Shown: positions 411 to 15,350 of the stretch, piece by piece
Layout: each line of letters starts with the position of its first letter
How positions within the stretch are numbered: the first letter of the stretch is position 1
Source: Deltaproteobacteria bacterium
GTDB lineage: Bacteria; Desulfobacterota; BSN033; UBA1163
DNA length: 15,532 nt
Assembly: GCA_016875255.1 (NCBI GenBank)
Contig: VGRU01000060.1
Location: 1-15,532 of the forward strand
Direction of reading: 5' to 3'
Translations under genes and position numbers: made by a program
The notes under the pieces: generated by a model
Seen by the model: only the letters and a program-made list of their open reading frames with translations
What the model was told of the DNA's origin: nothing
Database searches by the model: none

Positions 411-1154
411 ATGACTTTCTTTTCAGCAGAAAAATGGAATTCATTTCAAGAGGTCCTTGGATTAACAGAATCACCACTCGGAGTCTATTACATAAATGAT
501 AAACCTGAAGGCATCACCCCGAAAGAGGGAATACAGGGTTGTATGATCGGCCTGCTTCAGAATGCAAGGAAGAAAGGAAAAACTGTCTACTTCGATAAAA
601 CCCATTTCGGCTGCCCCGGAGGCGCCTACTACATGGGATTTTTTGAATCGCCCCGGCCGAACATCGAATACTTCCTCTCCTGCGGGATTCCGGGCGAGAT
701 GGAGGGAGAGCGTTATATCAAGACACCGGAGCGTGCGAGAGAATATTTTGCCAGAATGATACCCAGACGAGCGCCCGCAACCTATTGTGTCTTTAAGCCT
801 ATCGAGCAATTTCAAAGTGGCATAGACCCGGAGGTCGTTGTTTTTTTCGCTTCGCCGGATACCCTTTCCGGCCTCTTTACTCTGACCAATTATGCCCTTG
901 AACGGACGGACGCTGTTTACGCGCCATTTGGTTCCGGGTGTGGAGTCATTCTGACCTATCCTCTCAAGGAGGCAGTAAGGGACCAACCCCGTGCCGTTCT
1001 CGGGATGTTCGATGTCTCGGCAAGGCCCATGGTTGAGAAGGATATTCTCACCCTGGCAATGCCCTGCTCTGTTTTCTTAAACCTTTTAGAAAATGTTTCA
1101 GGAAGTTTTCTCGAAACCGAAAGCTGGAAAAAGGTCCTCCGCAGAATTTTTTAA
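411..1154 (+). CDS. DUF169 domain-containing protein
   Basis: A 247-residue cytosolic protein that fits the DUF169 family by overall length and motifs; there is no signal peptide or membrane segment. Visible family-type features are the N-terminal SPLGVYY segment (residues 21-27), GCPGGAYY at 67-74, GSGCG at 175-179 and an MPCS near 218-221. Six cysteines (44, 68, 91, 126, 177, 219) lie mostly next to glycines and could bind metal, but no standard Fe-S motif is present. DUF169 proteins have no established biochemical role; they often sit near redox genes in anaerobes. The start is supported by GGGGAGGTGAG just upstream. Its stop overlaps, tail to tail, the stop of the ferredoxin gene on the other strand. 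A second start inside another frame was ignored. Family call is from memory of motifs. Confidence 0.85.
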   Translation: MTFFSAEKWNSFQEVLGLTESPLGVYYINDKPEGITPKEGIQGCMIGLLQNARKKGKTVYFDKTHFGCPGGAYYMGFFESPRPNIEYFLSCGIPGEMEGERYIKTPERAREYFARMIPRRAPATYCVFKPIEQFQSGIDPEVVVFFASPDTLSGLFTLTNYALERTDAVYAPFGSGCGVILTYPLKEAVRDQPRAVLGMFDVSARPMVEKDILTLAMPCSVFLNLLENVSGSFLETESWKKVLRRIF

Positions 1155-1393
1155 TCGCTCAGTATATCACTCAAAAGCAGGCGGGCTACTTCGGACATCT
1201 CGGGCTGTATTTCCTCCACTTGAATTGCCTTTTCTTTACAGACGTCAGCACAACTCCTGCATCCAATGCAATCTTCCTCGTGAACAACCACCGATTTGCC
1301 TTCTTTCATCTCAAACACATTTACCGTACAGACCTCCAGGCAGTCTTCACAGCCTTTGCATTTTTCACCGTCCACGATCACTCGAAATGCCAT
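1151..1393 (-). CDS. Small 2x[4Fe-4S] ferredoxin
   Basis: An 80-residue soluble electron carrier. Two CxxCxxCxxxC motifs, at residues 12-22 (Cys12, 15, 18, 22) and 42-52 (Cys42, 45, 48, 52), each bind a [4Fe-4S] cluster in the bacterial ferredoxin fold. Neither motif is followed by the usual proline: Thr follows the first and Lys the second. The C-terminus has an acidic tail of about 25 residues, common in ferredoxins that dock on basic partner surfaces. The gene converges on DUF169 and is divergent from the block starting at 1848, so its promoter must lie within 1394-1640. The ribosome-binding site is weak (AAAGAG about 10 bases before the ATG). It could supply electrons to the oxidoreductase system to its right, but that is inference. 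Confidence 0.9.
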   Translation of the reverse strand: MAFRVIVDGEKCKGCEDCLEVCTVNVFEMKEGKSVVVHEEDCIGCRSCADVCKEKAIQVEEIQPEMSEVARLLLSDILSD

Positions 1394-2843: not shown

Positions 2844-3491
2844 ATGACCCACAGTCTGCACCGAAGGGGAAACTTTGACGATCTAAAAGACGACTTCGTG
2901 GTGTTGGGGTGCCCGGCAACCGGTATCAATAAGGCGGGCTCGTCCCCGAAAACCCAGAAGTTTTTAAGCATCTGTTATAAGAATGGCCCGATCAACCTGG
3001 GCGATATGAAGACGGGCAACATTTATAACACCACGATGGATGTCATCCTGGGCAATATGACCGATAGCACGATCGTCCAGTGCACCTTTGACAACCGGGA
3101 GAAGATCGTTTCGTTGCTGAAGGACTTGAAGGCAAATAAACCCGGCATTTCGATCATCATCTCGGGGGTCAGCGACATCGTTCAGCAATGTATGGAGGAG
3201 GCCGGGCTGGGCCGCATCCATACCATTGAATATTCCCTGGGAACATGGGGACAGACGGAGAAGTTGCCTCACTTTGAGATTCTCAAGACCACCACGATGT
3301 GCGGCCACGCCATGATTGCTGCGGATCTGGTCTACAAAATGGTCCGGGACGTGAAGCGGGGAAGAAGAACAGTTGAAGACGCATGTCTGGAGATGTCCAA
3401 ATGCTGCACCTGCGGCAACTACAATCTGACCCGTGGAATCAAGTTGTTCAAGGAATTGTTACCTTTATATATGGTGCATAGTTTGTACTAA
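2844..3491 (+). CDS. Unrecognised cysteine-rich protein (215 aa)
   Basis: I do not recognise this family. The protein is soluble, with no signal peptide. It opens with a HSLHRRG segment (residues 3-9) and a DDFVVLGCP segment containing Cys23. Further cysteines are at 44, 80, 116, 153, 181, 187, 188 and 190. The densest group is MCGHAM (Cys153, His155) and CCTCGNYN (Cys187, 188, 190). That arrangement could hold an Fe-S cluster or other metal but matches no standard ferredoxin motif. The middle (about 86-125) reads as a Rossmann-like beta-alpha-beta with SIIISGVSDI. The start is supported by AAAGGGAGGAAG immediately upstream. It lies between the ferredoxin-domain protein and the flavoprotein in the CooS-like block, so a redox or catalytic role is possible. 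The last residues (PLYMVHSLY) are not obviously family-like. Confidence 0.8.
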   Translation: MTHSLHRRGNFDDLKDDFVVLGCPATGINKAGSSPKTQKFLSICYKNGPINLGDMKTGNIYNTTMDVILGNMTDSTIVQCTFDNREKIVSLLKDLKANKPGISIIISGVSDIVQQCMEEAGLGRIHTIEYSLGTWGQTEKLPHFEILKTTTMCGHAMIAADLVYKMVRDVKRGRRTVEDACLEMSKCCTCGNYNLTRGIKLFKELLPLYMVHSLY

Positions 3492-3500
3492 CAGACCCAT

Positions 3501-3668
3501 AAATTCGAAGCACGAAATTCGAAATTCGAAACGATTTCGAATAACCAAAATTCTAAACTTATGAATAAAAGAGGTTTTGAAAATTTGATCATTCGGATTT
3601 TGGATTTGTTTCGGATTGGTCCGAGACGGACGCTTCGCCCGATATTCGGATTTCGGATTTTTTCCAAT
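3501..3668. repeat. CGAAATTCGAA-family inverted repeat, copy 2
   Basis: Starts ten bases after the preceding stop codon and ends just before the ribosome-binding site of the next gene. Left half: repeated CGAAATTCGAAA units. Right half: CGGATTTCGGATT-type units in the opposite sense, with the arms imperfectly complementary. Same family as 2619-2772 and 14013-14114. A GC-rich insert, GGTCCGAGACGGACG, at about 3619-3633 forms its own small hairpin. Confidence 0.65.
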
Positions 3669-3686: not shown

Positions 3687-4994
3687 ATGCGATATGTCAT
3701 CATCGGAGGGAGTGCGGCGGCGATCAGTGCGATAGAGGCCATCCGATCCATTGATCGTGATTCACCGATCGACCTGTTCAGCGATGAGGCCACTCCCCTC
3801 TTTTCAAGGGTTCTTCTCCCTTATTATATTGCCGAAGAGCTTTCAAAACCTCTCTTAAACTTCAGATCCGCAGATTTCTTTGAGCAGACCAGGGTCGTCC
3901 CTCATCTGGGTGTAAGGGTACAACAAATCTCACCCAATTCCAAAACGGTCCAGACTCAAAACGGGGACGCCCACTCTTTCGACAAGGTTCTTTTAGCCAC
4001 GGGAGGAAATCCTATTATTCCTCCCATCCCGGGGATCGATAAGGAAGGCGTCTCACCCCTGAAGACCATGGCCGATGCGGAAAGGATCTACAATCTCAAA
4101 GGCAAAAAAGCGGTGGTCATCGGAGCCGGAAGCGTTGGCGTCGAATCATGCATCAGCCTCAAGAGAAGAGGAATGGAAGTGACCCTGCTCGAACAATTAG
4201 GGCATGTCCTGCCCACGGTCTTTGATGAAGAGGCCGCCTCCATTATCCGGAAAAGGATCGAAGACCTCGGTATTAAAACGATCACCGGAGAAAAGGCTAT
4301 CCAGTTTACCGGAAATGGCCATGTAAAAAGCGTTGTCACGGATTCCAGGGAAATCGAGTGTGATATGGCCGTGGTCGCCGTCGGTGTCAGGCCTGCCATT
4401 GGACTTGCCCAGACAGCAGGAATAGAGATAGGCTCTCTGGGAGGCATCAAGGTCAATGGCCGGATGATGACCAGTGTGCCGGACATTTATGCTGCCGGCG
4501 ATGTAACCGAAACTTATGATATCACGCGGGACTCGAGTTGGATCAACGCCATCTGGCCTTGCGCTGTGGAACAGGGCCGTTTCGCCGGTTTGAATATGGC
4601 TGGCCGTGAAGCTCTCTACGAAGGGTCCTTCCGGAGGAATTCCATCGGAAATTTTATCGGCGTTCCTGCCATCTCGATGGGATTAACTCAAGCCGAGACC
4701 TGTTCGAGTTGTGAAGGAGGAGAGGCGTTTCAGGAAATCAAAAGAAGGACCAAAGACACCTATAAAAAATTGATTCTAAAGAACGGCCGCCTGGTGGGAG
4801 CCATCCTGGTGGGCCAGACGCAGAAGGCCGGGCTCTTCTTTATTCTATTGAAGAAGAGGATCGATGTTTCCGATTATATTTCGATCTTAATGAGCCGGGA
4901 TATCAATTTCATGAACATTCTGCCATTGATCAGGAGAAATGCGGACCGATTCACGGAGACCGAATACAAGGAGATCATGGATACGATGTTGTAA
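3687..4994 (+). CDS. FAD/NAD(P)H-dependent oxidoreductase (CODH-associated FNOR type)
   Basis: A 435-residue cytosolic flavoprotein of the pyridine nucleotide-disulfide oxidoreductase superfamily. An FAD-binding motif opens the protein (GGSAAAISA, residues 7-15). ATGG at 104-107 is the usual second FAD contact. The NAD(P)H Rossmann motif GAGSVGVES is at 147-155, followed by an acidic LLEQ at 167-170 that favours NADH over NADPH. The second FAD motif is YAAGDV at 268-273. There is no CxxxxC redox pair at the N-terminus, so it is of the NADH oxidase/rubredoxin reductase type. The C-terminus adds about 110 residues, including a CSSC at 339-342. Oxidoreductases of this kind commonly sit beside cooF and cooS and pass electrons between NAD(P)H and the CooF ferredoxin; gene order here supports the same job. 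AAGGAGG precedes the ATG. Confidence 0.93.
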   Translation: MRYVIIGGSAAAISAIEAIRSIDRDSPIDLFSDEATPLFSRVLLPYYIAEELSKPLLNFRSADFFEQTRVVPHLGVRVQQISPNSKTVQTQNGDAHSFDKVLLATGGNPIIPPIPGIDKEGVSPLKTMADAERIYNLKGKKAVVIGAGSVGVESCISLKRRGMEVTLLEQLGHVLPTVFDEEAASIIRKRIEDLGIKTITGEKAIQFTGNGHVKSVVTDSREIECDMAVVAVGVRPAIGLAQTAGIEIGSLGGIKVNGRMMTSVPDIYAAGDVTETYDITRDSSWINAIWPCAVEQGRFAGLNMAGREALYEGSFRRNSIGNFIGVPAISMGLTQAETCSSCEGGEAFQEIKRRTKDTYKKLILKNGRLVGAILVGQTQKAGLFFILLKKRIDVSDYISILMSRDINFMNILPLIRRNADRFTETEYKEIMDTML

Positions 4995-5265: not shown

Positions 5266-5718
5266 GTGAAGATTCTAATGGTTGATAAAAGCAAATGCAC
5301 GGGATGTCATCAATGCGAGCTCTGGTGTGGGACGGAAATTTCATCCACCTCAAAAGAGCTCTGTCAGGCCATCCATGAAGAGCCTCAACCCGTGCCGCGG
5401 GTTTATGTCGAAGGAAAACAGTTCGCCCTCCAGTGCCGGCACTGCGATGAAGCGCCCTGCATTGAGGCGTGCCCCAACGGAACCATGCGCAGAGACCCTG
5501 AGACAGGGCTGGTCTATGTCCATGAGCCAACCTGCATCGCCTGCTGGATGTGTGTGATGACCTGCCCCTTCGGAATCATCAACCCCTCCCCTTCGATGAA
5601 GGTGGCGATCAAGTGCGATCGCTGCCGGAACATGGGCTATCCCATCTGTGCGGAGGTATGCCCTACTCAGGCTTTGAAACTGGAGGATCGCAAGGATTAT
5701 CGGACAAAAGTATTTTAA
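5266..5718 (+). CDS. CooF-like 4x[4Fe-4S] ferredoxin
   Basis: A 150-residue soluble electron-transfer protein of the CooF/HycB/DMSO-reductase-B-subunit type. All sixteen expected cysteines are present in four groups: 11/14/17/21, 57/60/65/69, 90/93/96/100 and 117/120/128/132, enough for four [4Fe-4S] clusters. The group 57-69 has the CxxCxxxxCxxxC spacing and group 117-132 the wide CxxCx7CxxxCP spacing typical of this family. There is no twin-arginine signal, so it acts in the cytosol. In known CODH operons CooF carries electrons between CooS and a hydrogenase or oxidoreductase. Here it lies directly between the flavoprotein and the CooS-family gene, matching that layout. It starts at GTG, supported by GGGAGG at 5252-5257. 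The full cysteine set argues that it is functional even though its CooS partner is altered. Confidence 0.92.
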   Translation: MKILMVDKSKCTGCHQCELWCGTEISSTSKELCQAIHEEPQPVPRVYVEGKQFALQCRHCDEAPCIEACPNGTMRRDPETGLVYVHEPTCIACWMCVMTCPFGIINPSPSMKVAIKCDRCRNMGYPICAEVCPTQALKLEDRKDYRTKVF

Positions 5719-6026: not shown

Positions 6027-7754
6027 ATGGAATTCATTCAGAAGAAGACGATTGATAACGCAGTCGAGTATTTTCTGCTTAAAGCTGCTGATAGCGAGAT
6101 TCCTCTGGTATGGGACCGTTATGAAGGACAGCTGCCGGAGTGCGGCTTCTGTGAAACGGGTTTGAGCTGCCGCGACTGCCTTCAGGGACCCTGCATCAGC
6201 CATCCCTTCAGGGATTCGAATAAGGTGGGCGTCTGCGGAAAGGATAAAGACCTCCTTGCCATTCAATCTTTATTAAGGTTGGTCATGAAAGGAACGATGA
6301 CCTATCTCAACCGGTTAAGCGATTTCGCAGGGGGGATTGAGGCTGGAGAAATCAAACCCCAGAATAAGGCCAAAACAGATCAACTCTTAAAAGAAATCCA
6401 GGGCCTCTTCCGAAACGGCGGGTCAGCGGCGAAAAAAGATTTTCCAAAACCTCTGATGCGGGGCTGGGAAGAGATGGGAATTGCTCCGGAAGGAATGGCG
6501 AGGGACCTGTTCAAAGCCTCTCAGAAGTTAGAAGGAGGGATAACGGATGTTGAGGAAATCCTCCTCTGGACATTCAAATCCTCTCTTTTAGGTTGCATGG
6601 CACAATGGCTCTACGGAAGCTTAAAAACGTCGGCCTTTGGTGAAACCGTTCCCACAAAGATTGAAGTCAATCTGGGCGGACTGAAGAAGAAAGGGCCCAA
6701 CCTCCTCATCTATGGTTACTTTTCCCCCATTTTGAAGCAAAAAATAGCCGAAGCTGCAAAAAAACAGGGAGTCCACGTGATGGGCGTATGTACGGAACCA
6801 TTGATGCCCCCGTTCAGCTTTCCCATCGCAACCAATTACGGATCGCAAGAGATTCCCCTGATGACTGGAGCTGTTGATCTCATTGTGATGGGGGATCAAT
6901 CCGTTAATCCCTCCTTGGTTCGAGTAGCCAAAGAATTTGAGGTGCCTATCATCCTGACAGAGGTTTTGAAGAAGGAGAAAGACATCAACCGGTTTGCAAG
7001 GGGGATCGTTGAGAAGGCTAAAAAATCTTTTGACTTCCGCCGCACCATTCCCAGAGACATTCCGGAAATGAAAGAATACGCTACCATGGGTTTCTCCCGG
7101 GATAGCGTGGATGTGAAAAAAATTGCCGCTGGTCTCCAAAAAGGCCTTCTGAAGGGGATTGTGATTCTGGCCGGAAGCAACAATGTCAAATATACTCAGG
7201 ATCAAGAAATCACAACGATGGCGCAGGAGTTCTTGAAAAATGATATTCTTTGCATCTCAAAGGGCGAGGCAAGCGTTGCCCTTGGAAAATACGGACTTCT
7301 AAATCCCACGTTGAAGGAAAAATACTGCGGCAAAGGCTTATCGGATATCCTTTCTTCGCTCGGAAAGGAGGTCCCCTCTGTCATTGATATTGGAGGAGGA
7401 GACGGCGCTCTAACCGATTTCCTGCTGGAAATGACCAGAACAGGGAAAAAAGAATTGAAAGAGTATCCGATAGCAGCCTGTTATCCCGAGGCCAATCGCA
7501 GTTCAGAGGTGACCGAGGCGATGTGGACAGTGGCCATGGGGGTTTCAACCTATTTCTGGCCTGCCCTGCCTGTAACAGGGAGCACCAAGGTCCTGGGAGC
7601 CTTAACTCAATTCTGCGCGGAGAAGTTTGGCTCGAAGCTTATGATCACAACCGAAAAGAAGATGGAAGCCCGTGCCAAGGCTGACTGGATCATAAAAGCC
7701 ATAAAGGGTGAGGAAGGATATCGCCTCAGCGGCAAGCCCTGGAAAAAATCATAA
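6027..7754 (+). CDS. CooS-family (Ni-CO dehydrogenase) protein lacking the C-cluster ligands
   Basis: A 575-residue protein that aligns by eye along its length with the anaerobic CODH catalytic subunit (CODH-II of Carboxydothermus, about 636 residues). The N-terminus matches closely (WDRYEG at 29-34, CLQGPC at 51-56). The B-cluster cysteines 48, 51, 56 and 70 and D-cluster Cys39 are at identical numbers; the second D-cluster Cys47 is Ser, with a new Cys42. The C-cluster site is dismantled. The His ligand region HGH is YGY (229-231). Cys333 is Ser292 (GDQSVNP). Cys446 is Ser384 (AGSNNVK). Cys476 is Glu414 (KGEAS). Cys526 is Gly458 (GGGDG). Only Cys255 lies near the position of Cys295. The proton-relay histidines around 93-102 are also gone. 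The fold-defining segments (ATNYGSQE, TGSTKVL) persist, so this looks like selection rather than decay. CO oxidation is therefore unlikely; the real reaction is unknown. AAAGGAG precedes the ATG. Confidence 0.9.
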   Translation: MEFIQKKTIDNAVEYFLLKAADSEIPLVWDRYEGQLPECGFCETGLSCRDCLQGPCISHPFRDSNKVGVCGKDKDLLAIQSLLRLVMKGTMTYLNRLSDFAGGIEAGEIKPQNKAKTDQLLKEIQGLFRNGGSAAKKDFPKPLMRGWEEMGIAPEGMARDLFKASQKLEGGITDVEEILLWTFKSSLLGCMAQWLYGSLKTSAFGETVPTKIEVNLGGLKKKGPNLLIYGYFSPILKQKIAEAAKKQGVHVMGVCTEPLMPPFSFPIATNYGSQEIPLMTGAVDLIVMGDQSVNPSLVRVAKEFEVPIILTEVLKKEKDINRFARGIVEKAKKSFDFRRTIPRDIPEMKEYATMGFSRDSVDVKKIAAGLQKGLLKGIVILAGSNNVKYTQDQEITTMAQEFLKNDILCISKGEASVALGKYGLLNPTLKEKYCGKGLSDILSSLGKEVPSVIDIGGGDGALTDFLLEMTRTGKKELKEYPIAACYPEANRSSEVTEAMWTVAMGVSTYFWPALPVTGSTKVLGALTQFCAEKFGSKLMITTEKKMEARAKADWIIKAIKGEEGYRLSGKPWKKS

Positions 7755-7781
7755 GTCTTATAGGACTTATATGACTTATAG
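7752..7781. repeat. Small tandem/hairpin repeat across stop and start codons
   Basis: GACTTATA occurs at 7764-7771 and 7773-7780 (9-base period). TAAGTC 7752-7757 can pair with GACTTA 7764-7769. The TAA stop of the CooS-like gene (7752-7754) is in the hairpin and the ATG of the next gene (7771) is in the tandem repeat. Such a structure could affect re-initiation. Confidence 0.55.
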
Positions 7782-8946
7782 ACCTTATCAAAGCGGCAGA
7801 CATTTTCTTCAGATCCCGGGGCCGACCAATGTGCCAGACCGCGTTCTCAGGGCCATGGCCCAGCCCACCATTGACCACCGGGGGCCCGAATTTGCGAATC
7901 TTGCCCATGAAGCGCTCCAGGGGCTTAAAAAGATTTTCAAAACCTCAGGGAAAGCAGTTATCTTTCCCTCTTCCGGGACCGGAGCTTGGGAGGCGGCGCT
8001 GGTCAATACCTTATCTCCGGGAGATAAAGTATTGATGTTCGAGACAGGTCACTTTGCAACCCTCTGGCGCAACATGGCAGTGAAACTCGGGTTCGACGTC
8101 GATTTTGTCCCCGGGGATTGGCGACATGGCGTTGATCCTTCTGCCGTTGAGGAAAAACTCTCCAAAGATCGTAACCATGTCATCAAGGCGGTGGCAATCG
8201 TCCATAATGAAACCTCCACGGGTGTGACCAGCCGTGTGGCAGAGGTGCGCAAAGCCATCGATCGCGCCGGACATCCAGCGCTCTTGATGGTTGATACGAT
8301 CTCCTCCCTGGCATCGATCGATTACCGGCATGATGAGTGGGGTGTGGATGTCACAGTTGGCTGTTCTCAGAAAGGCTTGATGCTTCCTCCTGGCCTCGGA
8401 CTTAATGCCATCAGCGACAAAGCCCTGAAAGCTACGAAACAGGCAAGATTCCCGAAATCGTTCTGGGACTGGGAGGCCATGATTTCAGATAATCAATCCG
8501 GCTTTTTTCCTTATACTCCCGCCACCAATCTTCTTTACGGCCTCCGGGAATCTCTTCGGATGTTGTTTGAAGAAGGGCTTGAAAATGTCTTTAACCGTCA
8601 TCGCCGTTTCGCAGAAGCCACACGACGGGCTGTCCGGGCATGGGGGCTGGAAATCCTCTGTTCAAACCCTGAAGAATACAGCCCTTCCCTCACAGCGGTC
8701 TTAATGCCGGACGGATACAATGCCGATGAGCTTCGTGAGGTCATCCTGAAAAAGTTCAATATGTCGCTTGGCACAGGTCTCGGAAAACTGAAGGGAAAGA
8801 TATTTCGAATCGGACATCTCGGCGACTTCAATGACCTGATGCTTGCCGGGACCCTTTGCGGGGTTGAAATGGGCCTCGACTTGGCAAAGGTTCCCCACTC
8901 AACAGGAGGGGTCCATGAAGCGCTGAATTATCTGACAGGGCAATAA
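7771..8946 (+). CDS. Class V aminotransferase, serine/alanine-glyoxylate type
   Basis: A 391-residue PLP enzyme of fold type I, class V, full length for the serine-glyoxylate/alanine-glyoxylate aminotransferase family. It begins with the family signature IPGPTNVP (15-22). HNETSTGV at 145-152 and VDTISSL at 174-180 place Asp175 against the PLP pyridine nitrogen. GCSQKGLMLPPG puts the Schiff-base lysine at Lys201. The expected chemistry is transfer of an amino group from serine or alanine to glyoxylate, giving glycine; the exact substrate cannot be read. The ATG at 7771 is preferred: it gives the normal family N-terminus, has a short AGGA five bases upstream, and leaves a 16-base gap to the CooS-like gene. 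A GTG at 7708 would overlap that gene. Tight spacing on both sides implies co-transcription with the CooS-like gene and tctC. Confidence 0.92.
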   Translation: MTYRPYQSGRHFLQIPGPTNVPDRVLRAMAQPTIDHRGPEFANLAHEALQGLKKIFKTSGKAVIFPSSGTGAWEAALVNTLSPGDKVLMFETGHFATLWRNMAVKLGFDVDFVPGDWRHGVDPSAVEEKLSKDRNHVIKAVAIVHNETSTGVTSRVAEVRKAIDRAGHPALLMVDTISSLASIDYRHDEWGVDVTVGCSQKGLMLPPGLGLNAISDKALKATKQARFPKSFWDWEAMISDNQSGFFPYTPATNLLYGLRESLRMLFEEGLENVFNRHRRFAEATRRAVRAWGLEILCSNPEEYSPSLTAVLMPDGYNADELREVILKKFNMSLGTGLGKLKGKIFRIGHLGDFNDLMLAGTLCGVEMGLDLAKVPHSTGGVHEALNYLTGQ

Positions 8947-8975: not shown

Positions 8976-9956
8976 ATGAAGAAGCGAATTTTTACACTGT
9001 TACTGGTCACGGGTCTCACCATTTTATTTGCTGGTTTGGTATGGAGCCAGGCGCCTAAACCGAAGGACTACCCCACACGGGCGATTGAGGTGGTCGTCCA
9101 GTATGGTGCTGGCGGTGGAAGCGACATCTTTGTGAGAAGTTTAATGATGCCTGCAAGATCGCAACTTAAAGTCCCTATTAATGTTACCAACCTTACCGGT
9201 GGAGCAGGGGTCAAGGCATCCACTTACGTTCTTTCACAACCCGCCGATGGCTACACCATCTATAACTTCAGCCCTGAACAGCTCATCAATACCGTTTTCG
9301 GTCGCGAGAATTATAAAGAGTTTGTCCCTCTTTGTAATGTTCAGCAGGATCAGAGCGTTTTCTATGTGAGGGCTGAGAGTCCATTTAAGACGATTCAGGA
9401 TGTCATTAAGTATGCAAAGGAAAACCCGGGTAAATTGCAGTTTACCGGAACAACAGCCGCAAGTCCGGATGAAGTGATCATCATGCTCTTTGCAAAAAAA
9501 GCCGGCATCAAAGTGAAGTACATTCCCTTTGATGCCGCACCCGAGACCCATGCCGCCGTTCTCGGAGGCCATATCGATCTCCTCCATGAAGAGCCGGGTG
9601 TCATCATGTCGCTCATTGAAGCCAAAAGGCTTCGTCCTCTGATCGCCTTCACCGAAAAGAGACTGGATAAATTTCCCGATGTTCCCACGGCAAGGGAGTT
9701 GGGCTATGACATCACTATGGGCCGTTGGAGAGGACTCTGTGTAAAGAAGGGAACGCCCCAGGAGATCATCAACTATCTTTCTGATGTTCTCAAAAAGTGT
9801 TCACAGGATCCCTCCTATAAAGCCATTGAAAAGGCAAACCTTCTCGACCTCCGGCCAGGCTGGAAGGGACCTGAAGAATACGGAAAATTCTGGGATGAGG
9901 AGTATGTCAATTACAGAGCGATCTTTGATGAACTCGGATATCTGAAAAAGAAATAG
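8976..9956 (+). CDS. tctC: TTT transporter periplasmic substrate-binding protein (TctC/Bug family)
   Basis: A 326-residue secreted receptor of the tripartite tricarboxylate transporter family. The N-terminus is a classic Sec signal: KKR, a hydrophobic stretch at about 6-22, then a likely cleavage after SQA (residue 26). There is no lipobox cysteine, so the protein is free in the periplasm. The mature part has family features: the YPTRAIEVVV start, GAGGGSDIFVR, a central TGTTAASPDE, DVPTARELGYD near residues 230-240, and an IFDELGYL end. These proteins bind carboxylates through two beta-alpha loops that touch the carboxyl group; the side chain specificity is not readable. It starts 29 bases after the aminotransferase, with AAAGGAGGA as ribosome-binding site. 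A 301-base non-coding insert separates it from tctB, unusual for a transporter operon. Confidence 0.93.
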   Translation: MKKRIFTLLLVTGLTILFAGLVWSQAPKPKDYPTRAIEVVVQYGAGGGSDIFVRSLMMPARSQLKVPINVTNLTGGAGVKASTYVLSQPADGYTIYNFSPEQLINTVFGRENYKEFVPLCNVQQDQSVFYVRAESPFKTIQDVIKYAKENPGKLQFTGTTAASPDEVIIMLFAKKAGIKVKYIPFDAAPETHAAVLGGHIDLLHEEPGVIMSLIEAKRLRPLIAFTEKRLDKFPDVPTARELGYDITMGRWRGLCVKKGTPQEIINYLSDVLKKCSQDPSYKAIEKANLLDLRPGWKGPEEYGKFWDEEYVNYRAIFDELGYLKKK

Positions 9957-9974
9957 ATTCAAATGATGTGTGAA

Positions 9975-10184
9975 CCTTAACGTTGATAAAAAGTGAGGCA
10001 AGTGTGCTTACAAACCTTTACAATTGCGGATTATTTTTATATTTTATGGGAAACATACGATGTAACCTGATGTGGCCTTTGGGTTTTGCTTGAAAACAGC
10101 GTAGCCAAACGTTTAAAGGTGCCGCTGTAAAGTTTTTCCAGCACACCCGCCTCCCTTTTCATGTAATTTTTACGCAACTGTGAC
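9975..10184. repeat. ~210-bp inverted-repeat element A between tctC and tctB
   Basis: The left arm (9982-10022) and right arm (10126-10178) are imperfect reverse complements; for example GAGGCAAGTGTGCT on the left corresponds to GAGGCGGGTGTGCT read from the right, and both end in CTTTACA. The ends match those of element B (12980-13190): CCTTAACGTTG at the left and TTTAYGCAACTGYGA at the right. GTGAA flanks both sides (9970-9974, 10185-10189), a possible target duplication. No open reading frame is seen. It may be a miniature transposable element; an RNA structure is the alternative. Confidence 0.5.
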
Positions 10185-10200
10185 GTGAATAATAAATCTT

Positions 10201-10234
10201 GGTAGCCGCTCCGGTAAATACCGGAGCGGCTACC
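10201..10234. repeat. 34-base near-perfect hairpin before tctB
   Basis: GGTAGCCGCTCCGGTA (10201-10216) and its exact reverse complement (10219-10234) are separated by two bases. It lies 24 bases before the tctB start and outside element A. There is no T-run, so it is not a standard terminator. In RNA it would be a very stable stem near the ribosome-binding site and might stabilise the upstream tctC message, as REP-type hairpins do. Confidence 0.8.
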
Positions 10235-10257
10235 CTATCCTATTTGGGAGTGAATTT

Positions 10258-10749
10258 ATGTTTAAAGGGGAAATTCTCATCAGCGCAGTTGTTTTCTTAG
10301 GCTCCCTTTATCTCTATTTTGAATCGATGAAATTCGAGGGACATGAGATTTATGGAAAACTTGGGCCGGCCTACTGGCCCAAGTTTCTCCTTATCTGTCT
10401 CATGGTTCTGAGCTTTCTGGTGGCCGTGGATGCAATCCGGGAAAGAAAAAAGGGGACTCCGGAGAACAAGGAAGAATCGAAATTCGATGGCGGAAAGGTG
10501 AGGCTTCTCCTTGCCGTTGGCTTTATCGTCCTCTATTTCTTTCTAATGAAAATTGTTGGTTTCACCGCCCTCACCCCCTTCTTCCTCATTGCTTTTATGG
10601 TCCTTTTGGGAGAGAGGAAAAAGATCTGGATGCTCGGCATTTCGGTCGGGATAACCGCTCTGATCGTCTGGGCCTTTACGAAAGCAATGTACGTTCCCCT
10701 GCCGAGAGGCGTAGGGATTTTTCTCGAATTCAGCCATATTTTTTATTAA
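10258..10749 (+). CDS. tctB: TTT transporter small membrane subunit (TctB)
   Basis: A 163-residue inner-membrane protein with the usual size of TctB subunits. Hydrophobic stretches at about 6-22, 41-58, 82-100, 104-120 and 126-144 give four to five membrane helices. The charged loop at 61-80 (RERKKG, KEESK) lies between helices 2 and 3. GPAYWPKF at 36-43 is typical of the family (GPxxxP near the start of helix 2). In the TTT family this subunit assembles with TctA to form the membrane part of the secondary, ion-driven carboxylate importer. GGGAG is the ribosome-binding site. The gap to tctA is 18 bases, so the two are translated from one message. Confidence 0.88.
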   Translation: MFKGEILISAVVFLGSLYLYFESMKFEGHEIYGKLGPAYWPKFLLICLMVLSFLVAVDAIRERKKGTPENKEESKFDGGKVRLLLAVGFIVLYFFLMKIVGFTALTPFFLIAFMVLLGERKKIWMLGISVGITALIVWAFTKAMYVPLPRGVGIFLEFSHIFY

Positions 10750-10767
10750 AAAGAGGAGAACATTGTC

Positions 10768-12255
10768 ATGGTAGATGTCTGGTTGGGAGCGATACAGAGC
10801 ATATTTAATCCAGTCACACTTCTGATGATTTGGGGCGGGGTTCTCCTTGGGGTAACACTGGGCTCTGTGCCCGGACTTAACTCTACGATGGGGACAGCTC
10901 TCCTCATTCCCTTCACGTTTGCCATGACCCCGATCAATGGTCTTGCATTGCTCTCGGCCGTTTACTGCGGGGGGACCTATGGAGGGTCTATCTCGGCTAT
11001 CCTCTTCAATGTCCCCGGAGCTCCGGAAGCCTCAGCCACGGTCTTTGACGGCTATGAGATGGCAAAAAAGGGACAGGCTGCCCAGGCTCTTGGTTATGCA
11101 ATCATATGTTCTTGCCTTGGGGGCCTTTTCAGTGTGGTCGTTATGACATTTATTTCCCCGTTTCTGGCCAGCGTCGCCCTCACCTTTTCTCAGCCTGAAT
11201 ACTTTGCCCTTGCCATTACTGCGTTAACCCTTATTTCTTCCCTGGGAGGAAAGGGGCTGAAGAAGGCGACCATTGCTGGGGTTTTCGGGCTTCTGATGGC
11301 TACGATTGGAATTGATCCGATGACCTCTGATCCCCGTTTCACATTCGGGGGAAAGGCCCTGATTGGAGGAATCAATTTCATTCCTGCCATTATCGGGGCC
11401 TTTGCCGTGGGTGAGATCCTTGCCCGGGCGGAGAGCCGGAGTGATAAAAAGGAGGTATTTCTTTCAAAGATTTCGACCAAACTGCCCCGGATAAAAGAAA
11501 TTTTCAGAATGAAGTGGCTTGTCATCCGATCTGCCTTGATCGGAACATGGATTGGAATTCTCCCTGGCGTTGGAGCTACCACAGCCGCTTTTGTGGGCTA
11601 TGCCGAAGCAGTCCGCTGGTCGAAAAACCCTGAAAAATTCGGAACAGGAATCCCTGAAGGAATCGCAGGTCCTGAAACAGCGAACAATGCCGCAACAGGC
11701 GGAGCCATGGTCCCTCTTCTTACCCTTGGAATTCCAGGGAGCGCCACCACTGCGGTCATCATCGGCGGGTTTCTGGTCCACGGCCTTCAGCCCGGCCCCA
11801 TGCTTTTCATGAACCAGCCGAAGCTCATGTATTCCATTTTCCTCGCGATGTTTCTTGCCAACATCCTCATGCTCTTTGCCGGACTTGGAGTTGCCAAGGT
11901 CTTTTCCAATTTCAGAAGAATCCGATATTCTATTCTCGGACCCTGCATCTTCATCTTTGCGGCCATCGGCTCCTATGGAATCCGGAACGACCCGACCGAC
12001 CTCTGGATCATGTTCTTCTTCGGAGTCATCGGTTACTTCATGAAGAAGTACAACTATCCCATTGCTCCGATGATCATCGGCCTGGTCCTTGGAAACCTCA
12101 CCGAAATCTCTCTGAGGCGGGGAATGAGGATGGCGGATTATGACCTGTCCGCATTTTTGTTCCGTCCTATAGCCGCAGTCATCCTCGCCATTGCCGTGAT
12201 TTCGATCCTTTACAGTTTAATTCGGAAGAAACCCAAGGTCCTGGAGGAGGATTAA
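10768..12255 (+). CDS. tctA: TTT transporter large membrane subunit (TctA)
   Basis: A 495-residue polytopic inner-membrane protein, full length for TctA, with roughly eleven or twelve hydrophobic helices. The duplicated family signatures are clear: GTYGGSISAILFNVPG (about residues 70-85) in the first half and TLGIPGSATTAVIIGG (about 318-333) in the second, plus a GVLLGVTLGSVPG and a GILPGVGATT that are also repeats of each other. Re-entrant loops at these motifs form the transport path in the family. It works with TctB and TctC to import a carboxylate using an ion gradient. AGAGGAG lies just before the ATG. The regulator gene begins 37 bases after its stop. Confidence 0.95.
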   Translation: MVDVWLGAIQSIFNPVTLLMIWGGVLLGVTLGSVPGLNSTMGTALLIPFTFAMTPINGLALLSAVYCGGTYGGSISAILFNVPGAPEASATVFDGYEMAKKGQAAQALGYAIICSCLGGLFSVVVMTFISPFLASVALTFSQPEYFALAITALTLISSLGGKGLKKATIAGVFGLLMATIGIDPMTSDPRFTFGGKALIGGINFIPAIIGAFAVGEILARAESRSDKKEVFLSKISTKLPRIKEIFRMKWLVIRSALIGTWIGILPGVGATTAAFVGYAEAVRWSKNPEKFGTGIPEGIAGPETANNAATGGAMVPLLTLGIPGSATTAVIIGGFLVHGLQPGPMLFMNQPKLMYSIFLAMFLANILMLFAGLGVAKVFSNFRRIRYSILGPCIFIFAAIGSYGIRNDPTDLWIMFFFGVIGYFMKKYNYPIAPMIIGLVLGNLTEISLRRGMRMADYDLSAFLFRPIAAVILAIAVISILYSLIRKKPKVLEED

Positions 12256-12292: not shown

Positions 12293-12985
12293 ATGCGGCG
12301 TAAACCTATCTCTGCAGCAACCCTCCCCAACAATGGTCTCCCGGTTAGGGGAAAGGTCTATGATTATTTAAAAACCGCGATTCTTTCCGGCCGTCTGAAT
12401 CCCGGCGAAAAATTGACCGAGGAACACCTCGCCAAAACCATAGGGGTGAGCCGAACCCCTGTTAGAGAGGCGCTCCATAAATTAGAGTCGGAAGGACTGA
12501 TCAAACCCCGTAAAAAGAGGGGTTTTTTTGTCTCCGGAGATTCGAAGGAGGAGGTTGAGGAGCTCTTTGAAATCCGATCTGTCCTGGAGGGATACGCTCT
12601 GAGAGTAGTCTCGGAAAGAATCTCCGATCAACTTCTTGAACGGCTCAACGGGTTCATCAAGAAGGCCGAAAAGGCCTTGAGAAATAGAAGAATCGACGAG
12701 GTGTTCAGATGGAACACCCGGTTCCATGACACGCTTCATTCGATGGTCGCAGAAAAAAGGCAGCTCCACCGATTGATGGTGGACATCAGGAAATTTGTGC
12801 TCCGATACCGGAAGGACACTCTCAAATATCCCGATGGCGGGAAAAGGGCCGTGGAAGGCCACCGCAAAATCATCATCGCCCTTCAGTTGAAAGACCCTGA
12901 CCTCTGTGAGCGGGTCATGCGGGACCACATACGCGAAGCCAAAGACGATGCCCTGCAATCTCTGTTCGGGAAAGGTTTACCTTAA
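12293..12985 (+). CDS. GntR-family regulator, FCD (FadR) subfamily
   Basis: A 230-residue DNA-binding protein. The winged helix-turn-helix is at about 17-82: the recognition region is GVSRTPVREALHKLESEGLI (51-70) and the wing RGFFV (76-80). Residues about 88-220 form the all-helical FCD ligand-binding domain. The metal-ligand pattern is readable: Asn141 (usually Asp), His145, His190 and His212, which commonly hold Zn or Ni and contact a carboxylate effector. Such regulators often repress transport and catabolic genes until the organic acid substrate binds. Gene position at the end of the transporter operon and the TTGTATACAA box at 1821-1830 suggest autoregulation of the whole block. There is no strong ribosome-binding site before the ATG at 12293. 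The final Pro codon and stop (CCTTAA) coincide with the left end of element B, so the C-terminus may have been altered by its insertion. Confidence 0.93.
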   Translation: MRRKPISAATLPNNGLPVRGKVYDYLKTAILSGRLNPGEKLTEEHLAKTIGVSRTPVREALHKLESEGLIKPRKKRGFFVSGDSKEEVEELFEIRSVLEGYALRVVSERISDQLLERLNGFIKKAEKALRNRRIDEVFRWNTRFHDTLHSMVAEKRQLHRLMVDIRKFVLRYRKDTLKYPDGGKRAVEGHRKIIIALQLKDPDLCERVMRDHIREAKDDALQSLFGKGLP

Positions 12986-13193: not shown

Positions 13194-14006
13194 TTACTTC
13201 AAAATGATATAAACTGCGATGAGGATCACGAAAAGGGCAAATAACTTTCGCAGGCGAAATGGGTGCGTCTTGAATGAGACAAGAGCCCCTGCTCTTGCTA
13301 AAAAGATCGTCCCGATGGCGAGGGCTATTCCTCGCTCCAGATCAACAAACCCGAGACTCCACTTCGGCAAATCCGCCCGTCCCATCCCGTTCCAAATATA
13401 ACCCGCCACTGAAAAAAGAGCCGTAATGATGATTGTGGCGCTCGATGTCCCGATCGCCAATTTCAGAGGCATCTTTAAGACGTAGTACATGATGGGGATG
13501 GTAAAAACACCTCCCCCGATTCCCGCCAGAGCGGAAACCATACCAGCAGTCAGCCCCACCCCGACCAAACCAAAGACGCCTGGTTCGGATGAGCGTTCCA
13601 GCTTCTTCTGAGCTACAGCCTGACTTTCCGTCAGCATCCGGACGGCGGCGATCGAAACAATGACGGCAAAGGCGACCTGCAAATGCTTTCCGCTCAAAGC
13701 CGCTGCAAGCCAGGTGGTTAAAAAAGCGGTCAGGCCGCTGGAAAACCCGATCGTCAGGACCGCACGCCAGTTGATGTTTCCCTGTTTGTTATGTTGATAT
13801 GCGCTTGAAATCGAGGCGAAAAGGACGACGAAGAGGCTGGTGCCGATGGCGATATGAGTCAGCACAGAGGGAGAAAAACCCAGATGTTCATAGCTGAAAA
13901 TCAGGATGGGAACCATGATGAACCCGCCGCCCACCCCGAAGAGCCCAGCAAGGAATCCCACGCCGCATCCCACCGCCACAAAGATTAAAAATTCGATCAG
14001 GGCCAT
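13194..14006 (-). CDS. TauE/SafE-family membrane exporter
   Basis: A 270-residue inner-membrane protein with eight hydrophobic segments in two homologous halves. Each half starts with the family's glycine motif: LFGVGGGFIMVPIL (about residues 22-35) and LAGIGGGVFTIPIM (about 161-174). Family members move organosulfur or sulfur oxyanions such as sulfite or sulfoacetate, or other small anions; the substrate here is unknown. There is no strong ribosome-binding site before the ATG at 14006, which directly abuts a repeat element. The stop codon lies in the GGTTTAC copy that borders element B. It may share a transcript with the permease gene upstream on the same strand, separated by 114 bases of repeat. 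I see no link to the CooS-like block beyond position. Confidence 0.9.
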   Translation of the reverse strand: MALIEFLIFVAVGCGVGFLAGLFGVGGGFIMVPILIFSYEHLGFSPSVLTHIAIGTSLFVVLFASISSAYQHNKQGNINWRAVLTIGFSSGLTAFLTTWLAAALSGKHLQVAFAVIVSIAAVRMLTESQAVAQKKLERSSEPGVFGLVGVGLTAGMVSALAGIGGGVFTIPIMYYVLKMPLKLAIGTSSATIIITALFSVAGYIWNGMGRADLPKWSLGFVDLERGIALAIGTIFLARAGALVSFKTHPFRLRKLFALFVILIAVYIILK

Positions 14007-14012
14007 ATCATT

Positions 14013-14114
14013 AAATTCGGAATGCAGATTGCGGAGTGCGGAGTGAAAAACAAAGAAAAAGTTTTCTTCTTTTTGGTTATAAATTCCGAAATCCGCATTC
14101 CGAAATCCGAAATC
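14013..14114. repeat. CGAAATCCGAA-family inverted repeat, copy 3
   Basis: The left part (ATTCGGAATGCAGATTGCGGAG) and right part (14085-14114, with TCCGAAATCCGCATTCCGAAATCC-like units) are imperfect inverted copies. The centre pairs AACAAAGAAAAAG with CTTCTTTTTGGTT at about 14049-14080. Read on the - strand, it follows the permease stop and ends in T-rich sequence, so it may also terminate that transcript. Same family as 2619-2772 and 3501-3668. Confidence 0.5.
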
Positions 14115-14120
14115 AAGGCT

Positions 14121-15350
14121 TTATTCATACCTCAGCGCTTCGATCGGGTTGAGCAGAGAGGCTTTCCTCGCCGGATAGAACCCAAAGAAGACCCCCACTG
14201 ACCCTGAAAAGAAAAAAGCCAGGAGGATTGCCTGTGCTGAAAAGAGAACGGGCCACTGGGTGAAGCTCGACAGGATGAGGGTCCCAGCAATTCCAACTCC
14301 TATGCCAAGTATTCCTCCCACCAGACTGAGCACCAGGGATTCGATGAGGAATTGGAGAAGGATATCCTTTCCCTTTGCACCCACGGCGATGCGAATCCCG
14401 ATCTCTCTCGTCCTCTCCGTTACCGATACGAGCATGATGTTCATAATCCCGATCCCGCCAACGATCAGAGAGATGGAGGCAATGGCACCCAGGAGCAAAG
14501 ACATCACCCTTGCTGATTCCTCCGCGCTTGAAGCAACCTCGGTCAGGTTTCGAACTGAAAAGTCATTCTCCTGGGCGGGTTGAAGCCGGTGCCTCTGCCG
14601 GAGAAGCTCTGTGATCTGTTCCTCCACGGTCTTCATCACCTCAGGCTCACTTGCCTGAACCGTGATCACCCTCACCATTCCTGGAAACTGCATTCCGAAG
14701 AGCCTCTTCTGTGCTGTGGACAGGGGGACGAAGATGATGTCATCCTGGTCCGTTCCCCAGGCCGATTGCCCCTTGGGATTTAGTACGCCAATGACGGTAA
14801 ACGGAACTTTTTTGATCCGGACGATCTGCCCGATCGGGTCAATCCCTCCGAAAAGATTATCCGTCACGGTCTTTCCGAGGAGACAGACTTTGGTGGCGCC
14901 GTCCAGGTCCTGTTGTGTGAAGGTTCGGCCTGAATGGAGTGACCATTCCCGGATCTCGAGAAGCTCGGGAATTGTTCCATAAACAAGCGTGGACCAGTTC
15001 TGGTTTCCGAAAATCACCTGAGCGACTCCGGAGATATGCGGGGCTACGAGCCTGACACCCGGGATCTCCGTTAAAATCGCTTTCGAATCCTCGATGGTAA
15101 GTGTGGGTACGGTCCCCGCTCCGAACCTCATCCCGCCGCTGGTCGAGCTTCCGGAAAGCACGATGAGGATATTCGACCCCATGCTCGCAATCTGGTCGGC
15201 GATCTTCTTCTTTGCCCCTGACCCCACGGCGATCATTGCGATCACAGCGCCCACGCCGATGATAATTCCGAGCATGGTGAGGCTGGAGCGCATCTTATTG
15301 ACCATGAGGCCGCGAAGGGCAATCCTGAGGCTGGCAAAGAGTGTTGTCAT
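14121..15350 (-). CDS. MacB/FtsX-type ABC transporter permease
   Basis: A 409-residue inner-membrane protein with the four-helix layout of the MacB/LolC/FtsX permeases. Helix 1 is at about 22-45, after the family start LRIALRGLMVNKMRSSLTMLGIIIG. A large periplasmic MacB_PCD domain spans about 46-270. Three helices follow at about 283-307, 330-360 and 370-395. The signature MLVSVTERTREIGIRIAVGAK (about 307-327) and the ending PARKASLLNPIEALRYE are diagnostic. Members use an ATP-binding partner to drive lipoprotein, peptide or macrolide export through mechanical movement rather than a channel. No ATPase gene is present in the window, and the 180 bases upstream are non-coding, so the partner must be elsewhere. 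There is no clear ribosome-binding site. The protein appears complete. Confidence 0.92.
   Translation of the reverse strand: MTTLFASLRIALRGLMVNKMRSSLTMLGIIIGVGAVIAMIAVGSGAKKKIADQIASMGSNILIVLSGSSTSGGMRFGAGTVPTLTIEDSKAILTEIPGVRLVAPHISGVAQVIFGNQNWSTLVYGTIPELLEIREWSLHSGRTFTQQDLDGATKVCLLGKTVTDNLFGGIDPIGQIVRIKKVPFTVIGVLNPKGQSAWGTDQDDIIFVPLSTAQKRLFGMQFPGMVRVITVQASEPEVMKTVEEQITELLRQRHRLQPAQENDFSVRNLTEVASSAEESARVMSLLLGAIASISLIVGGIGIMNIMLVSVTERTREIGIRIAVGAKGKDILLQFLIESLVLSLVGGILGIGVGIAGTLILSSFTQWPVLFSAQAILLAFFFSGSVGVFFGFYPARKASLLNPIEALRYE

Follow-up and report, generated by a model that had tools for sequence, protein, structure and literature searches.

In Ni,Fe-CO dehydrogenases (CODHs), the ligands of the C-cluster are His261, Cys295, Cys333, Cys446, Cys476 and Cys526 in CODH-II numbering, and His93 and Lys563 act as acid-base catalysts. 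Type III D-clusters are [2Fe-2S] clusters. Cys295 is named as a C-cluster ligand in PMC13240472 and PMC9311411, and the former prints [2Fe-2S] for “type II” D-clusters, apparently a slip for type III. CODHs relay electrons among their C-, B- and D-clusters, with a CooF-like ferredoxin as the recipient (PMC6344411), and the three C-terminal C-cluster cysteines are described as highly conserved “with a few exceptions” (Inoue 2019, PMC6344411). Sequences with such ligand mutations are excluded by the filters of Inoue 2022 (PMC8776680) and likewise by those of a 2026 marine survey (PMC13240472), and clades G and H are left out of a 2026 context analysis in eLife (PMC13056359). A literature search, with most subscription papers outside it, found no description of a CODH family without the C-terminal C-cluster cysteines.

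The window, by which we mean the whole 15,532-nucleotide stretch of DNA analyzed here, encodes a CooS-like protein of 575 amino acids (6027 to 7754, forward strand). This protein and its relatives, the window family, resemble clade G/G-1 in having a type III D-cluster, a threonine or serine at the position of Cys295 and a tyrosine at that of His93, and their locus resembles that of clade G/G-1 in having an FAD/NAD(P)-dependent oxidoreductase (FNOR) and a CooF-like ferredoxin as neighbors (Inoue 2019, PMC6344411). However, G-1 keeps His261, Cys333, Cys446, Cys476, Cys526 and Lys563, whereas the window family has none of these four cysteines; the G-1 signature of H,T,C,C,C,C with Y,K is broken by the loss of the four cysteines and the lysine. 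Two marine clade G sequences are called standalone in PMC13240472, unlike the loci of the window family. CooS-V of Carboxydothermus (group D-1) is, like the window protein, a CODH scaffold with an altered active site (PMC9311411), and it shares the tyrosine at the His93 position (table in PMC6344411). CooS-V has glutamate in place of Cys295 and holds a [4Fe-3S-nO] cluster (PMC9311411), whereas the window protein is without the other four cysteine ligands; the combination of a glutamate at 295 with these four cysteines kept does not occur in the window family. A first-pass annotation of this DNA had invoked CODH-V as a precedent, which stands for an altered scaffold but is a weaker parallel than suggested, as CODH-V lacks one cysteine and the window protein four (PMC9311411).

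Two other known systems share features with the locus. Hybrid cluster proteins (HCPs) belong to the same Pfam family as the window protein (Prismane, PF03063), but their hybrid-cluster cysteines are absent from it, and HCP models (TIGR01703) gave no match to it at E 1e-3; a clade-G-like relative matched TIGR01703 weakly, at 22 bits. CODH-CooF-FNOR clusters, such as locus L057, in which the ligands are kept, have CooS, a CooF-like ferredoxin and FNOR adjacent as in the window. Window-type loci differ from these clusters in carrying two genes designated fam3 and fam2 before FNOR, wherever the contig reaches that far, and in a CooS without the C-cluster cysteines.

The first-pass claim of an intact reading frame with fold-defining motifs was borne out. 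The 575-codon frame is open, and its product matches the Prismane/CODH family (PF03063, E=1.1e-51); the best sequence match in the PDB is 6elq (E=5e-62, residues 6-547), by its structure title CODH-IV of Carboxydothermus, and CODH-II was matched as well. Against TIGR01702, the NCBIfam model of the CODH catalytic subunit, the protein scored 221.6 bits, below the cut-off of 478, which the clade-G-like protein of L054 likewise missed (280.5 bits). An AF2 model of the window protein, built on an alignment of 22 sequences in which every other member shared at least 70% identity with it, reached a pLDDT of 65 and a pTM of 0.69, with low values at residues 23-69 and 251-288; a model this weak supports the fold, the clusters and the pocket being beyond its resolution. 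A Foldseek search with this model returned a CODH in 50/50 listed rows (best E 3.4e-26), at a TMq of 0.65-0.69 and an rmsd of 10-12 Å, which speaks for the overall fold only. Judged by these matches, the CODH fold is kept.

Alignment with CODH-II places Ser292 in the column of Cys333 (YQC), Ser384 in that of Cys446 (AGC), Glu414 in that of Cys476 (TGC) and Gly458 in that of Cys526 (GSC). The HGH motif reads YGY, with Tyr231 in the His261 column, and the columns of Lys563 and His93 hold Ser493 and Tyr93. All four cysteine replacements and the YGY in the first-pass annotation were thereby reproduced, and its central claim, that the C-cluster ligands are gone from a protein that still has the fold, is well supported. 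It had also proposed that at most one ligand, Cys255, remains; the upper limit holds, but the assignment of Cys255 as that ligand is ambiguous and the less likely reading. This cysteine lies in GVCT, compared to GICCTG in CODH-II, and a one-gap placement pairs it with CODH-II Cys294 rather than with the ligand Cys295, while the two-gap placement on Cys295 scores 5-9 BLOSUM62 units worse in 18/18 canonical rows (17 distinct genes). The window protein would thus retain at most one cysteine ligand, and more likely none. The six C-cluster ligands of a functional Ni,Fe-CO dehydrogenase are not present as a set, nor are its His93 and Lys563, and, judged by its defining residues, the protein is a member of the CODH/Prismane superfamily that is not a CO dehydrogenase. 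The B-cluster cysteines, which had been reported as kept, are indeed all found (Cys48, Cys51, Cys56 and Cys70), and Cys39-x2-Cys42-x5-Cys48 is the type III D-cluster motif, C-x2-C-x5-C, given for D. vulgaris CooS and clade G (Inoue 2019, PMC6344411).

A search of 5.8 billion proteins with the CooS-like protein yielded 769 matches at E <= 1e-20, of which the best 120 (69-96% identity) were combined with the window protein into a set of 121. Whether the same replacements are fixed in homologues, a question raised by the first-pass annotation, can be answered for this set: Cys333, Cys446, Cys476 and Cys526 are found in 0/121 proteins, as is Lys563. His261 is present in 23/121, and His93 in four, the window protein not among them. 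Position 292, in the Cys333 column, is F in 70, W in 25, S in 14, Y in 9, L in 2 and A in 1 of the 121, and the aromatic residues (104/121) would fill the pocket. Position 384 is serine in 120/121, position 414 is E in 85, G in 35 and Q in 1, position 458 is a gap in 74/121, and position 231 holds seven different residues. The Cys295 column is Thr or Ser in 118/121 proteins and the His93 column Tyr in 116/121. By comparison, Cys39, Cys42, Cys48, Cys51, Cys56, Cys70 and Cys255 are present in 121/121. The four cysteine ligands are also absent from 14 proteins whose loci come from genome records (L001-L014; they share 48-83% identity with the window protein), where 384 is Ser, Thr or Gly and 414 is Glu, Asp or Gln, and where one protein, that of L013, has a lysine in the Lys563 column; the protein of L015 is cut by a contig end and was left out of the residue counts.

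The source names of the ligand-free matches are mostly Deltaproteobacteria, Syntrophaceae, Desulfohalobiaceae and Thermodesulfobacteriota, and many of these matches carry the JGI name of a CODH catalytic subunit. Together with the filters of the published surveys, this naming means that annotation-based estimates of CO-oxidizing potential may be too high. A further CODH homologue was detected in 12/14 host genomes, with none found in G004 and G012, and the 15 further host CODH genes for which a locus was available (L030-L044) all keep His261, the four cysteines and Lys563, so that most hosts have another candidate for CODH chemistry.

Four genes precede the CooS-like gene on the forward strand. 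The fam3 gene (1848 to 2606) encodes two [4Fe-4S] ferredoxin motifs (8 Cys) and about 190 amino acids of another domain, with the start placed at ATG 1848 rather than TTG 1812 on the basis of its relatives. It is followed by fam2 (2844 to 3491, 215 amino acids), by FNOR (3687 to 4994, 435 amino acids), which has a GAGSVG dinucleotide motif at 146 and PadH, below cut-off, as its best NCBIfam match, and by a polyferredoxin of 150 amino acids (5266 to 5718) whose 17 cysteines leave room for four [4Fe-4S] clusters and which is called HydN/CooF-like by likeness, the listed NCBIfam matches being below their cut-offs. Downstream on the same strand lie a class V aminotransferase (7771 to 8946, likely start ATG 7771; best NCBIfam match BhcA, below cut-off), a tripartite tricarboxylate-type transporter (8976 to 12255) and a GntR/FCD regulator identified by Pfam (12293 to 12985). 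Within the transporter, TctC is assigned by Pfam (8976-9956), and 10258-10749 and 10768-12255 are presumably TctB and TctA, judging from likeness and position. A small 2[4Fe-4S] ferredoxin of 80 amino acids with 8 Cys (1151 to 1393, reverse strand) is a recurrent upstream neighbor. The spaces between the genes of the five-gene run measure about 195-308 bases in the window and are narrower in L003. Intergenic positions 2618-2689, 2712-2768, 3500-3557 and 14081-14112 hold short, imperfect repeats with many GAAATTCGAA-like words.

The order fam3 - fam2 - FNOR - polyferredoxin - CooS-like was found by tblastn in 13/15 loci, L007 and L011 beginning inside the run. Across the 15 loci, identity to the window was 73-93% for fam3, 67-95% for fam2, 63-89% for FNOR, 71-97% for the polyferredoxin (present in 15/15) and 48-83% for the CooS-like protein. 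The same five-gene order is present in the window itself, in L055 and in the ligand-bearing L054, and the ligand-bearing L052 and L053 begin inside the run. Neither this order nor the kinship with clade G had been recognized in the first-pass annotation. The class V aminotransferase accompanies 11/17 ligand-free loci (the 15, the window and L055) and 0/3 ligand-bearing loci; it is absent from L001 and L010, where at least 5 kb of downstream sequence is present, and four further loci could not be judged. The transporter beside the cluster is of the Tct type in some loci and of what we take to be the TRAP type in others, and the idea that ligand loss went together with a change of transporter was abandoned, since transporters differ among the ligand-free loci too.

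We propose, with a probability of about one half, that the ligand-free protein serves as a B/D-cluster electron conduit with FNOR and the polyferredoxin, on behalf of a separate catalytic unit for which fam3 and fam2 are the candidates. On this view, a former CO dehydrogenase would persist as a dimer that conducts electrons through its Fe-S clusters and offers a docking scaffold. NAD(P)H/FAD in FNOR would exchange electrons with the polyferredoxin and, by way of the D- and B-clusters, with the separate catalytic unit, in either direction, rather than with the old C-site. This unit would most likely consist of fam3, with its 2[4Fe-4S], and fam2, with a candidate Cys/His metal site, its substrate being an imported organic acid; no bound nickel and no CODH activity would be expected of the ligand-free protein. 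The reading is favored because conservation extends to the B- and D-clusters and to the ferredoxin and FNOR neighbors but not to the old ligand positions, and for the same conservation an electron relay is the best fit among the three functions that the first-pass annotation had offered, the others being a different cofactor and substrate binding. Further points in its favor are purifying selection, the recurring gene order, the aromatic residues in the Cys333 column, the more degenerate protein of L089 described below, the second CODH homologue of most hosts and the fold matches. If it is true, nature would here have parted the CODH scaffold, together with its B/D electron wire, from the nickel cluster that does the catalysis. 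The fuller version, in which a CODH was turned, at its own locus, into a core for electron transfer alone, within an as yet undescribed Fe-S oxidoreductase of several subunits in Desulfobacterota with fam3/fam2 as the catalytic part, is put forward tentatively, as a possibility with odds somewhat against it.

The conduit reading is tempered by the conservation of two pocket residues, Cys255 and Glu494, and some pocket chemistry may persist. The emptied pocket could instead be a different active site, binding a substrate or another metal with Cys255, Glu494, Glu414 and residues nearby, in a neofunctionalized oxidoreductase whose B/D relay is intact. Beyond the invariant Cys255, this is consistent with Glu494, next to the lost lysine, which is found in at least 98% of the 121 proteins and in 14/14 loci, in a column occupied by Ala in no fewer than 95% of the best 120 of 832 clade-G-like proteins and in 18/18 canonical rows. 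(The Glu494 of D. vulgaris HCP is unrelated, the shared number being a coincidence.) Yet the old ligand positions 292, 414, 231 and 458 are strongly variable, the aromatics at 292 suggest a filled pocket, and the conservation of Cys255 is not specific, this column being Cys in 119/120 clade-G-like proteins (best 120 of 832) as well. We regard a new active site as unlikely, at perhaps one chance in four.

Still less probable is a redox or ligand sensor, a regulatory subunit of the FNOR-polyferredoxin complex through which no electrons flow. A regulatory function was suggested in PMC13056359 for the CODHs of clades C and D, but the window gene cluster looks catabolic and has a GntR regulator of its own, and two cluster sites are kept in the protein.

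Pairwise dN/dS values, obtained with our own Nei-Gojobori script, were 0.155 (L007/L008), 0.106 (L005/L006), 0.101 (window/L001) and 0.104 (window/L002) for the ligand-free CooS-like gene. Three of these pairs have a dS close to 1, which makes their ratios rough. A ligand-bearing pair gave 0.171, and seven comparisons of neighboring genes gave 0.022-0.117; of the five genes compared between the window and L001, fam2 had the lowest value (0.036). The low ratios of the CooS-like gene support purifying selection on the ligand-free gene and a retained function, as the first-pass annotation had supposed. That the CooS-like gene is the fastest-changing of the five (48-83% identity, against 63-97% for the other four) might suggest a functionless, decaying CODH remnant, but this is contradicted by the dN/dS values of 0.10-0.16 and by B/D cysteines that are invariant in the 121 proteins, and we consider it very improbable.

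Relatives that keep the ligands were found in a sample of 395 genomes from the phylum of the L003 genome, in which a maximum of three candidates per genome was scored. A CooS-like match at E <= 1e-43 was present in 10/395 genomes, five ligand-free, three ligand-bearing and two canonical CODHs. The three ligand-bearing proteins (L047, L048 and L049; 55-58% identity to the window protein) keep His261, Cys333, Cys446, Cys476, Cys526 and Lys563; Cys295 is replaced by Thr in them and His93 by Tyr, and their D-cluster is of type III. In Table 2 of Inoue 2019 (PMC6344411), this signature is the one listed for G-1. That these relatives have cysteines in exactly the lost columns answers the concern that the cysteines had merely shifted in the alignment. 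Although at least 98% of the 121 proteins have Cys255, Cys409 and Cys434, an alignment artefact hiding a normal or altered C-cluster is highly improbable, as Cys409 stands beside a full ligand set in the same three relatives, Cys434 pairs with a CODH-II cysteine that is no C-cluster ligand, and neither of these two is found in L013 and L014, the loci that branch deepest.

With the L054 copy as query, 832 matches were obtained, of which the best 120, query included, were aligned. His261, the four cysteines and Lys563 are present in 120/120 of these proteins, and the Cys295 column is T in 96 and S in 24. We call this ligand-bearing group clade-G-like, the G-1 label resting on its residue signature in a comparison and a tree that did not include OGP75751. 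The tree comprised 70 rows (18 of the 121 window-group and 18 of the 120 clade-G-like proteins, L001-L014, L046-L049 and 16 of the 18 canonical rows), with two canonical rows omitted, L032 because it is partial and L045 because it belongs to the same gene as L034; ligand columns were removed and quick searches used. The ligand-bearing group forms a clade in this tree (SH-aLRT 100), and the ligand-free and G-1-like groups fall together, apart from the canonical CODHs (SH-aLRT 100). In the unconstrained tree the ligand-free rows form four lineages on a weakly supported backbone, while the best tree with these rows as one clade is 0.84 lnL higher (p-AU 0.55). Several independent ligand losses were set aside on this score, which does not disprove them, and a single loss is the simplest and preferred reading, though not proved, because Glu494 is characteristic of the ligand-free proteins and the constrained tree is no worse.

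Among 17 genomes of one order, which may be incomplete, six carry a ligand-free protein, three a ligand-bearing one, eight neither and none both (E <= 1e-60). The ligand-bearing L054 is flanked by GntR, TauE-like, MacB-like and DUF169 genes that are 73-85% identical to those of the window, a flank common to the ligand-free loci L003, L004, L012 and L055; of the other ligand-bearing loci, L053 shows only the DUF169 gene of this flank and L052 none of it. Ligand-bearing relatives in the same order, once between the same flanking genes, amount to a built-in comparison. As they have the same neighbors, these neighbors are no proof of a non-catalytic role, and the partnership is independent of the loss. 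In the window, the DUF169 (COG2043) gene (411-1154, forward strand) recurs near ligand-free and ligand-bearing clusters alike, and the conserved right flank shared with L003, L004, L012, L054 and L055 consists of the TauE-like (13194-14006) and MacB-like (14121-15350) genes, both on the reverse strand and presumably named correctly from likeness; NCBIfam gave just a weak MamO match for the former.

A more degenerate form was found in L089 (13610-15079, reverse strand), where a 489-amino-acid CooS-like protein, 23% identical, has four cysteines around the B-cluster, where one extra residue is inserted, Asp and Leu at D-cluster columns, and neither the C-cluster ligands nor Cys255. Curated family matches reach its N-terminal part alone, and the gene is accompanied by three fam3/fam2 sets, FNOR and a polyferredoxin. 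The B-cluster survives in every stage of CooS-like degeneration seen.

Finally, the fam3/fam2 pair extends beyond the CooS-like loci. An alignment of 14 fam2 proteins, among them a paralogue at 38% identity, shows Cys153-Gly-His155, Cys188 and Cys190 to be invariant. No match of fam2 to Pfam or NCBIfam was obtained at E 1e-3; at looser limits, matches in Pfam, NCBIfam and the PDB were weak and scattered (e.g., Rpp14, E 0.0045), those of single members to SWI2/SNF2 (E 0.0022) and DUF659 (E 0.0033) were equally unconvincing, and an AF2 model on 61 sequences reached a pLDDT of 53. The designed PPR proteins that fam3 matched in the PDB align with it over about 26 residues, and these matches were discarded as spurious, the remaining matches weighed being to ferredoxins. 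Relatives of fam2 occur in 29/395 genomes, with up to seven matches each, compared to 8/395 for the CooS-like family, and 10/11 regions around them, some cut by contig ends, have no CooS-like match. On these counts, fam3/fam2 can probably act without the CooS-like protein, a point that weighs against the conduit reading, and the pair is possibly a new enzyme class. One locus, L097, carries fam3-fam2-FNOR-GntR-polyferredoxin beside LamB/YcsF and carboxyltransferase genes on a contig that ends at the polyferredoxin, where a CooS-like gene may have been cut off. Away from CooS-like genes (L088-L096), fam3/fam2 lie beside PdxA or Tct/TRAP-type transporters, and also beside a set of AFOR, a TPP enzyme and a CoA-transferase III.
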